A stretch of DNA of 64,000 bases, from positions 310,001 through 374,000 of the forward strand of contig JANQRX010000005.1 in assembly GCA_028284325.1 (NCBI GenBank), in the 5' to 3' direction. The DNA comes from Bauldia sp. (GTDB taxonomy: Bacteria > Pseudomonadota > Alphaproteobacteria > Rhizobiales > Kaistiaceae). The notes beneath the pieces were generated by a model. The model worked only from the letters and a program-made list of their open reading frames with translations. It was not told the origin of the DNA and ran no database searches. Both the position numbers and the translations under genes were made by a program. Below, in pieces: positions 61,069-63,092 of this stretch; the first letter of the stretch is position 1, and each line of letters opens with the position of its first letter.

Positions 61069-62517
61069 CTACATGCGCCGGGCGACGATGGCGGCAAGCC
61101 TTTGGGCTGCCGGTGCGATCTCTTCCAGATGGGGCAGGGCGAAGCCGAGGAGAAGCCCCGGCCGCGGGGTTTCGACGCAGATCGGCGACAGCGGCACGGC
61201 CGCCAGGTCGGCGTCGGCCAGATCCTCCACCAGCCTCAGATCATCGACGTGATCCGGCAGGCGTACCAGCAACTGCAGACCGCCACGGGGTGCTGCGACC
61301 GTAGCGCCTTCCGGCAGATGGGTCCTGAGTGCAGCGACGAGGGCGTCGCGCTTGGCCGCGTAGAGCGGGCGGGTGCGGCCGACATGGGCGGCGAGGTAGC
61401 CTTCGTTGATGAAGTCGGCCACCGCGGCCTGCACATGATGGGAGACGACCTGGCCGAGCGCGGCGGTGATGTCGGCCATGCGCGCGGCCAACCGCGGCGG
61501 CGCGACGATGAAGGCGATGCGGATGCCCGGCGCCAGAAGCTTGGAGAAGGTGCCGACATAGACCACATGGCGACCGCCATCGATGCCCTGGAGGGAGGCG
61601 ATCGGCCGTTCGGCGTAGCGGAACTCGCTGTCGTAGTCGTCCTCGAGCACGACCGCGCCTCGGCGACGGGCGGCCTCCAGAAGCGCGAGCCGCCGGCGCA
61701 GCGTCATGGTGACGCCGGTCGGGTAGTGGTGGGAGGGGGTGACCGCGATGAGACGCAGCCGTTCCACGCCCTCCAGCGCCGCCGCCACCAGCCCCTCGTT
61801 GTCGACCGGCACCGGCGCCACATTGGCCGCGGCGGCGGCGAAGACGTGGCGGGCGCCGGGATAGCCGGGATCCTCGACCGCCACCGTGTCGCCGGGGTCG
61901 GTGCAGCACAGGACGATCGCGTCGAAGGCGGCCTGCGCCGACGGCACGATGACGATCTGGCCGGGGTCGGCGACGACCCCGCGGGCGCGGTTCAGGTGCC
62001 CGGCCAGCGCTTCCTGCAACAGCGGCAGGCCGTCGGCGTGGTGGTAGGAGAGATCGTCGCGGCGCAGCGTGCGGGCGCGGGCAGCGAGACAGCGCGACCA
62101 CTCCTTCTGCGGAAAGTCGGCCAGCGACGGCAAACCGGGCCGAAAGCAGCGCGGCCACGGCGGGTTGTTGGCAGCGGCGCGGCCGAAGGTCTCGGCGCGC
62201 GCGGACGGGGCCGGTCCCTCTGTCGTCGGCAGCGACTTGAGGGCGACGTCCGACATCGCCGCCACGATCGTCCCGCGTCCGGTCCGGGCATCGAGATAGC
62301 CCTCGGCCGCGAGCTGCTCGTAGGCGGCGACGACGGTGCCGCGACTCACACCGAGGCGTTCGGCCATGCGGCGGGTGGCGGGCAGCCGCGCGCCCGGCGC
62401 CAGCCGCCGGGCCAGGATCGCGTCGCGCAGGCCGCGATAGATCTGACGCTCGCGATTGCCCGCGGTCGGGTCGAAGGGAAAGGCCCAGGCGTAGTCGTCG
62501 CTGCCGGATTGGACCAA
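61069..62517 (-). CDS. MocR/PdxR-type GntR-aminotransferase transcriptional regulator
   Basis: A 482-residue regulator with an N-terminal GntR winged helix (about 25-95; LPATRRMAERLGVSRGTVVA) and a C-terminal fold-type I aminotransferase-like domain. The PLP-lysine lies in YVGTFSKLLAPG near 322, and DDLSYHHADGLPLLQEALAG lies near 152. The start is TTG 62517, with GGAGA eight bases upstream; it overlaps the first ATTGG(A/T)CC operator. MocR proteins usually sense PLP or an amino compound and bind repeated sites. The genes controlled are probably the two divergent small proteins. Confidence 0.88.
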   Translation of the reverse strand: MVQSGSDDYAWAFPFDPTAGNRERQIYRGLRDAILARRLAPGARLPATRRMAERLGVSRGTVVAAYEQLAAEGYLDARTGRGTIVAAMSDVALKSLPTTEGPAPSARAETFGRAAANNPPWPRCFRPGLPSLADFPQKEWSRCLAARARTLRRDDLSYHHADGLPLLQEALAGHLNRARGVVADPGQIVIVPSAQAAFDAIVLCCTDPGDTVAVEDPGYPGARHVFAAAAANVAPVPVDNEGLVAAALEGVERLRLIAVTPSHHYPTGVTMTLRRRLALLEAARRRGAVVLEDDYDSEFRYAERPIASLQGIDGGRHVVYVGTFSKLLAPGIRIAFIVAPPRLAARMADITAALGQVVSHHVQAAVADFINEGYLAAHVGRTRPLYAAKRDALVAALRTHLPEGATVAAPRGGLQLLVRLPDHVDDLRLVEDLADADLAAVPLSPICVETPRPGLLLGFALPHLEEIAPAAQRLAAIVARRM

Positions 62518-62554
62518 TAGATAATCTCCAAATGGACCTCAGAACCGGTCCAAT
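62508..62554. promoter_or_regulatory. MocR-type repeated operator, three ATTGG(A/T)CC sites
   Basis: ATTGGACCAAT at 62508-62518 is a palindrome that contains the regulator's TTG start. AATGGACC lies at about 62531-62538 and GGTCCAAT at 62547-62554 in the opposite sense. Several repeated half-sites at uneven spacing are typical of PdxR/MocR regions. The cluster covers the promoter gap between the regulator and the first small gene. Confidence 0.65.
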
Positions 62555-62594
62555 AAGAGCCTATCTTGGAAGCAGGTCAAGAGAGGAGGACACC

Positions 62595-62777
62595 ATGCTC
62601 GTTCCCGGCTTCGTCTTCAGATTCGGCAAGGATCGTCAACGGCCGGCGGCGCGGCCGCTGCCGCCTCTGACGCCCGCGCAGCGGGTCGATCTGGGCCTCG
62701 ACGCCGGCGCACCGGCGATCGACAGCCTTTATGATCGTGAAGCGCTGGCGCGCTTCAACGTCGAACGTCTGCGGTAA
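62595..62777 (+). CDS. Small DUF1127-like protein A
   Basis: A 60-residue basic protein. The core LTPAQRVDLGLDAGAP (near 23-38) recalls the DUF1127 pattern (R-x-L-xx-L-x-x-LDDR-x-L-x-DIGL), and the C-terminal half YDREALARFNVERLR is helical. GAGAGGAGG lies upstream of ATG 62595, a strong ribosome-binding site. It is divergent from the MocR regulator and precedes its paralogue B. DUF1127 proteins elsewhere bind RNA or affect phosphate and carbon responses. The role here is unknown. Confidence 0.72.
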   Translation: MLVPGFVFRFGKDRQRPAARPLPPLTPAQRVDLGLDAGAPAIDSLYDREALARFNVERLR

Positions 62778-62814
62778 GCGCGGCGCTGACGCCTTCGCCG
62801 CTATCTGTCTTTCA

Positions 62815-62860
62815 ATTGGACCATCAGGAATGCGGAAATTGGCTCCAATGACAGGGCCAA
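62815..62860. promoter_or_regulatory. Second cluster of ATTGG(A/T)CC-type sites before small protein B
   Basis: ATTGGACCAT (62815-62824), ATTGGCTCCAAT (62838-62849) and GGGCCAAT repeat the half-sites found at the MocR promoter. They lie about 50-90 bases before the second small gene. The recurrence suggests that one MocR protein controls both small genes separately. Confidence 0.6.
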
Positions 62861-62906
62861 TCAGGGGGTATCCCGAACGTCCGTCCACCAGATTTGGAGA
62901 CCAGCC

Positions 62907-63092
62907 GTGAATCGTTCGAGCCTTGGAAAGTGGGTCGCAGGGGTGGCCCGGCGCCGTCGCGACAGGCGGACGATCGACGCCATGACACCGGCGCAGCGGC
63001 GCGATGTCGGTCTCGGCGCCGGTGCGGCGATGAAGAACGCGCTGTTCGACCGGGCGGCGGCGACGCAGATCTATCTCGACAGCCTCAAGTAA
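62907..63092 (+). CDS. Small DUF1127-like protein B
   Basis: A 61-residue basic protein, clearly a paralogue of protein A: MTPAQRRDVGLGAGA aligns with LTPAQRVDLGLDAGA, and FDRAAATQIYLDSLK with YDREALARFNVERLR. The N-terminus is a poly-arginine stretch (VARRRRDRR). The GTG start has GGAGA six bases upstream. Codon use fits the neighbours. It has its own repeated sites and ends three bases before the stop of the protease on the opposite strand. Confidence 0.7.
   Translation: MNRSSLGKWVAGVARRRRDRRTIDAMTPAQRRDVGLGAGAAMKNALFDRAAATQIYLDSLK

Follow-up and report, generated by a model that had tools for sequence, protein, structure and literature searches.

The right end of the analyzed DNA of Bauldia sp. 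(hereinafter, the window, that is, the whole stretch of 64,000 nucleotides) raises the question whether a regulator of the MocR/GabR type controls two small basic genes that are divergent from it, through repeated boxes located upstream of each, and whether such a pairing represents a new type of regulon. The gene order in this region is a TypA-like GTPase, mocR (minus strand), ORF1 and ORF2 (both plus strand), and a site-2-protease-like gene with CBS domains (minus strand). The locus includes the following features:

61069-62517, minus strand: mocR, 482 aa MocR/GabR-type regulator, GntR winged helix and fold-type-I aminotransferase domain, TTG start
62508-62554: predicted operator 1, boxes 62508-62515 (plus, palindromic to 62518), 62531-62538 (plus) and 62547-62554 (minus), 1 mismatch to the pattern, overlaps the mocR start codon
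62595-62777, plus strand: ORF1, 60 aa basic protein, paralog of ORF2, ATG start, GGAGG ribosome site at 62585-62589
62815-62861: predicted operator 2, boxes 62815-62822 (plus), 62838-62845 (plus) and 62854-62861 (minus), 3 mismatches to the pattern, between ORF1 and ORF2
62907-63092, plus strand: ORF2, 61 aa very basic protein, GTG start, GGAG at 62896-62899, sub-threshold DUF1127 match

The mocR product has the architecture characteristic of the MocR/GabR type, an N-terminal GntR winged helix (Pfam GntR, 56.5 bits) fused to a fold-type-I aminotransferase-like domain (Aminotran_1_2, 97.5 bits), and comparison with GabR (4n0b) gives an E-value of 6.6e-54. K326 of the window protein (TFSKLLAPGIR) aligns with the conserved TFSK lysine of GabR (TFSKSLLPGLR) and is the predicted PLP-binding lysine. 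Among the NCBIfam models, PdxR (NF052282) is matched with 412 bits, above the curated cut-off of 320; the score of the rhizopine MocR model, 431 bits, is above that of PdxR and yet below that model's own cut-off of 650. The TTG start codon (62515-62517), with GGAG 8 nt upstream, overlaps ATTGGACCAAT (62508-62518), so that the gene indeed begins inside one of the repeats, as originally described. The closest ortholog of this protein, with 62% identity, is encoded in a genome from another genus (G009).

The products of ORF1 and ORF2, with calculated pI values of 10.6 and 11.7, respectively, are 40% identical across 40 aa (E 4e-10), a similarity score reached in none of 5000 shuffles; the initial description of two divergent basic paralogs of 60 and 61 residues is thus borne out. 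Their assignment to the DUF1127 family, which we take to be the same as COG5457 or YjiS, is a different matter. A Pfam search with ORF2 detects DUF1127 (PF06568) over residues 12-36 with an E-value of 5.6e-4 and 20.0 bits, below the gathering cut-off of 23.3, which weakly favors the assignment of this protein and falls short of family membership, whereas ORF1 has no match in Pfam or NCBIfam; a profile derived from 29 DUF1127 domains of relatives yields near-zero scores for both. At the sequence level, the two proteins are best called DUF1127-like at most. The structure model of ORF2 is all-helical, with low confidence (pLDDT 69.9). The window genome (G000) carries one DUF1127 gene above the Pfam cut-off (C11:149265), compared to 2 to 6 in most relatives from the same family.

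No convincing homologs of ORF1 or ORF2 are found in 385 genomes of the class; weak class-wide matches of ORF2 (the longest-looking small frames are in L170 and L172) were rejected because of their overlap with other genes and their location away from MocR. The sole candidate ortholog in the family is a 55 aa ORF at the same position of the orthologous locus in G009, which ends with TQRWLDSLR, compared to TQIYLDSLK in the window. The profile used in the family search had three rows, one of which was this very ORF, so that the search is circular in its case; BLASTP yields no alignment for it, and shuffle tests give p of about 2e-4 for the global and 0.09 for the local comparison. This ORF appears to be a poorly conserved positional counterpart, for which the pairwise evidence is weak.

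Upstream of each small ORF, there is a site of the same geometry, ATTGGNCC - 15 - AWTGGNNC - 8 - inverted box, with the box sequences ATTGGACC/AATGGACC/GGTCCAAT in operator 1 and ATTGGACC/ATTGGCTC/GGGCCAAT in operator 2. These two sites score 36.6 and 36.0, respectively, and the next unrelated site within 20 kb scores 3.7. They end 41 and 46 bp before the start of the respective small gene (in G009, the corresponding distance is about 50 bp). Operators of MocR/GabR regulators consist of two to four repeated boxes between the divergent genes; here, two direct boxes and one inverted box are present. The earlier note described clusters of ATTGG(A/T)CC before each small gene; repeats are present upstream of both, but the second cluster includes one exact ATTGGWCC only, and the common feature is the three-box layout. 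Within the 64 kb window alone, ATTGGWCC is found 5 times against a shuffle mean of 2.75, which is not significant and compatible with a chance cluster. In the 3.58 Mb genome, however, this motif occurs 58 times (20 for a control pattern), with 4 of the 58 within 315 bp at the locus, the sole such cluster in the genome; together with the identical three-box geometry of the two sites and its conservation in the ortholog, this makes chance an extremely improbable explanation. The sole other close pair in the genome is the second ATTGGTCCAAT palindrome, located inside another ORF, of 149 aa; it was rejected as a regulon site and attributed to chance. The pattern search detects no third three-box site in the window genome, there is no ATTGGWCC within tens of kb of its one true DUF1127 gene, and a scan of the locus finds no sigma-70-type promoter.

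A search of 298 genomes of the order with the three-box pattern, allowing up to 3 mismatches, yields four matches, two at the window locus, one in G009 and one in G086, all at MocR divergent regions; a reversed control pattern yields one match in the same genomes. The G009 match is located in the divergent region of the closest MocR ortholog, and the boxes and their exact spacing are kept there although the spacers differ, so that the repeats are conserved where the earlier note had demanded conservation, in an orthologous locus. The G086 match adjoins a 488 aa MocR gene divergent from an EamA transporter. More broadly, at 37 of the 111 related MocR loci (one a duplicate), many of them adjacent to pyridoxamine-phosphate-oxidase-like genes, a site of the same layout scores at least 15.9 and exceeds the top score in 30 shuffled versions of that region; the five loci used to derive the position weight matrix, or near copies of them, are among these 37. 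Given that, in the 298 genomes, the pattern is almost confined to the divergent regions of MocR genes and that the exact spacing is kept in the nearest ortholog, the three-box sites are very probably operators of the window MocR, and ORF1 and ORF2 are very probably its targets, in agreement with the original proposal that the regulator controls both small genes via the repeats. Binding of the ATTGGNCC boxes by some other regulator seems very unlikely: the boxes accompany MocR genes of this clade across many genomes in which the neighboring genes differ, and in one relative, G029, all three have changed in a coordinated way (ATTGGTAT/AATGGATA/ATACCAAT).

Analysis of the gene neighborhoods of the 111 related MocR loci reveals a Pyridox_ox_2-like gene in the fetched flanks of 48; other neighbors include EamA, LysE or BenE transporters and the small zinc-ribbon protein DUF1272. 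For example, the related MocR genes of Parvibaculaceae/Rhodobiaceae (L034-L039, e.g., L035:1989-2817) are divergent from the gene of a small DUF1272 zinc-ribbon protein, with a Pyridox_ox_2 gene after it, and these loci share the three-box operator. The PdxR/PdxW/PdxQ groups, which are associated with PLP metabolism and have Pyridox_ox_2, DUF1272, EamA or LysE targets, are the nearest MocR clade and share the three-box operator with the window locus, but differ from it in that no PLP-metabolic gene (pyridoxine biosynthesis or salvage) adjoins the window mocR; the window genome has no Pyridox_ox_2 gene and no three-box site outside this locus. In a quick tree, the window MocR joins the G009 ortholog (support 100) inside a group with G029 (Pyridox_ox_2) and G039/G086 (EamA) (support 94, no bootstrap). 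Given that the clade relatives adjoin Pyridox_ox_2 or EamA genes and the window genome is devoid of Pyridox_ox_2, we infer a plausible change of the MocR target in the window lineage. Beyond the one poorly conserved ORF, no DUF1127 adjacency is detected in this clade (111 related loci) with the 29-domain profile, which is insensitive to diverged members given its near-zero score for ORF2. A DUF1127 gene 1.9 kb from the MocR gene of G029 was rejected as a MocR partner, being divergent from a LysR gene rather than from MocR. At another locus (L176:3124-4444), a LysR gene and a DUF1127 gene that diverge from each other are located 1 kb past a MocR/Pyridox_ox_2 divergon.

An alternative is that the operators serve autoregulation of mocR only, whereas ORF1 and ORF2 are untranslated or non-functional remnants at the place where a PLP-oxidase-like target gene was. 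The lack of Pyridox_ox_2 in this genome, against its presence at so many related loci, and the lack of orthologs of the two ORFs outside it, save the doubtful one in G009, are compatible with this possibility. Nevertheless, it is unlikely considering that the similarity between the two proteins is far beyond that of shuffles, that both ORFs have ribosome sites at a normal distance, and that ORF2 has its own intact operator copy, which is unneeded for mocR autoregulation.

The locus is best interpreted, with good but not full confidence, as a MocR divergon in which the regulator binds two three-box operator copies and controls mocR, ORF1 and ORF2. The genes, the geometry of the operators and the conservation beside MocR genes are observed; from these, and from related systems, we infer the binding by MocR, the direction of control, the ligand and the role of the microproteins. 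Specifically, MocR would bind both copies of the operator, each with two direct boxes 23 bp apart and one inverted box, which is the most frequent arrangement among MocR regulons (32%) according to PMC5320631. Operator 1, between mocR and ORF1, covers the mocR start codon, and therefore binding there would most likely repress mocR and control ORF1; operator 2 would control ORF2. By analogy with characterized MocR divergons, MocR most likely activates the small genes and represses its own; according to PMC5320631, MocR-TFs often repress their own genes and are encoded divergently from the targets they activate. Also by analogy, PLP or a PLP-reactive amine would change MocR binding, and the microproteins might work like DUF1127 proteins, as small adaptors for RNA or protein partners; among the DUF1127 proteins, CcaF1 binds RNA, the Agrobacterium SDPs bind PhoR, and Salmonella YjiS displayed no association with RNA. 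It appears doubtful that a MocR ancestrally controlling a PLP-oxidase-like enzyme was rewired to two lineage-specific microproteins via duplicated operator and gene units, so that small basic adaptors acting on RNA or a sensor kinase would be present at a level dictated by PLP or amine status; the link of the locus to vitamin B6, amines or RNA regulation is speculation.

The earlier note considered this pairing a new regulon type, which is not borne out. COG5457 (YjiS family) is frequent in MocR-TF regulons according to a published survey (Suvorova & Rodionov 2016, PMC5320631). Furthermore, among 30 EhuR-type MocR loci collected from the class, 15 carry a DUF1127 ORF that is oriented oppositely to mocR and lies on its divergent side. 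In 14 of the 15, this ORF starts at 69-146 bp from the end of the mocR match and, in the remaining one, at 968 bp, where the mocR match may be partial; all 10 DUF1127 proteins of these loci that were tested pass the Pfam cut-off. Thus, the adjacency that was to be sought in related genomes is found at EhuR-type loci, but not in the own clade of the window MocR, save for the single G009 ORF. Because the EhuR-type MocRs belong to another subgroup, the window locus represents a distinct instance of an already recognized regulator/target pairing, not a new kind of system. The EutR/EhuR-type and other MocR-TF divergons with COG5457/DUF1127 targets (PMC5320631) resemble it in that a small basic DUF1127-type gene is divergent from MocR, with repeated boxes in between. 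The EhuR-type divergons differ in their boxes, which are ATTGTCATGGTGACAAT-like and repeated in the intergenic regions (visual inspection shows a 23/16 spacing in L199 at least) in place of ATTGGNCC, in having one target gene rather than two operator and gene units, and in that their small proteins are clear DUF1127 members, unlike those of the window. VtlR of Brucella, which controls three DUF1127 genes (PMC12595884), is likewise a regulator devoted to several small genes of the DUF1127 family, but belongs to the LysR family, the regulator and its site being unrelated. The novelty of the window locus is therefore modest and consists in the two operator and gene units, the diverged lineage-specific proteins and a MocR clade that is usually paired with PLP-oxidase-like enzymes.

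Many alphaproteobacteria are predicted to carry MocR-DUF1127 divergons, and no experimental test of the pairing was found in the literature searched. At the window locus, the predicted operators have exact coordinates, each of the two target genes has an operator of its own, and there is a clear prediction on ligand binding. The survey of EhuR-type loci opens the way to asking directly, in laboratory strains, why DUF1127 microproteins are controlled by PLP-type sensors. Most of the 15 DUF1127 proteins at the EhuR-type loci (L177-L206, e.g., L181:2978-3202 and L199:2940-3209) contain, by eye, a C-terminal tail close to E-x-x-KPFWR, which follows the DUF1127 domain, outside the true DUF1127 match, and may mark a MocR-linked subfamily.
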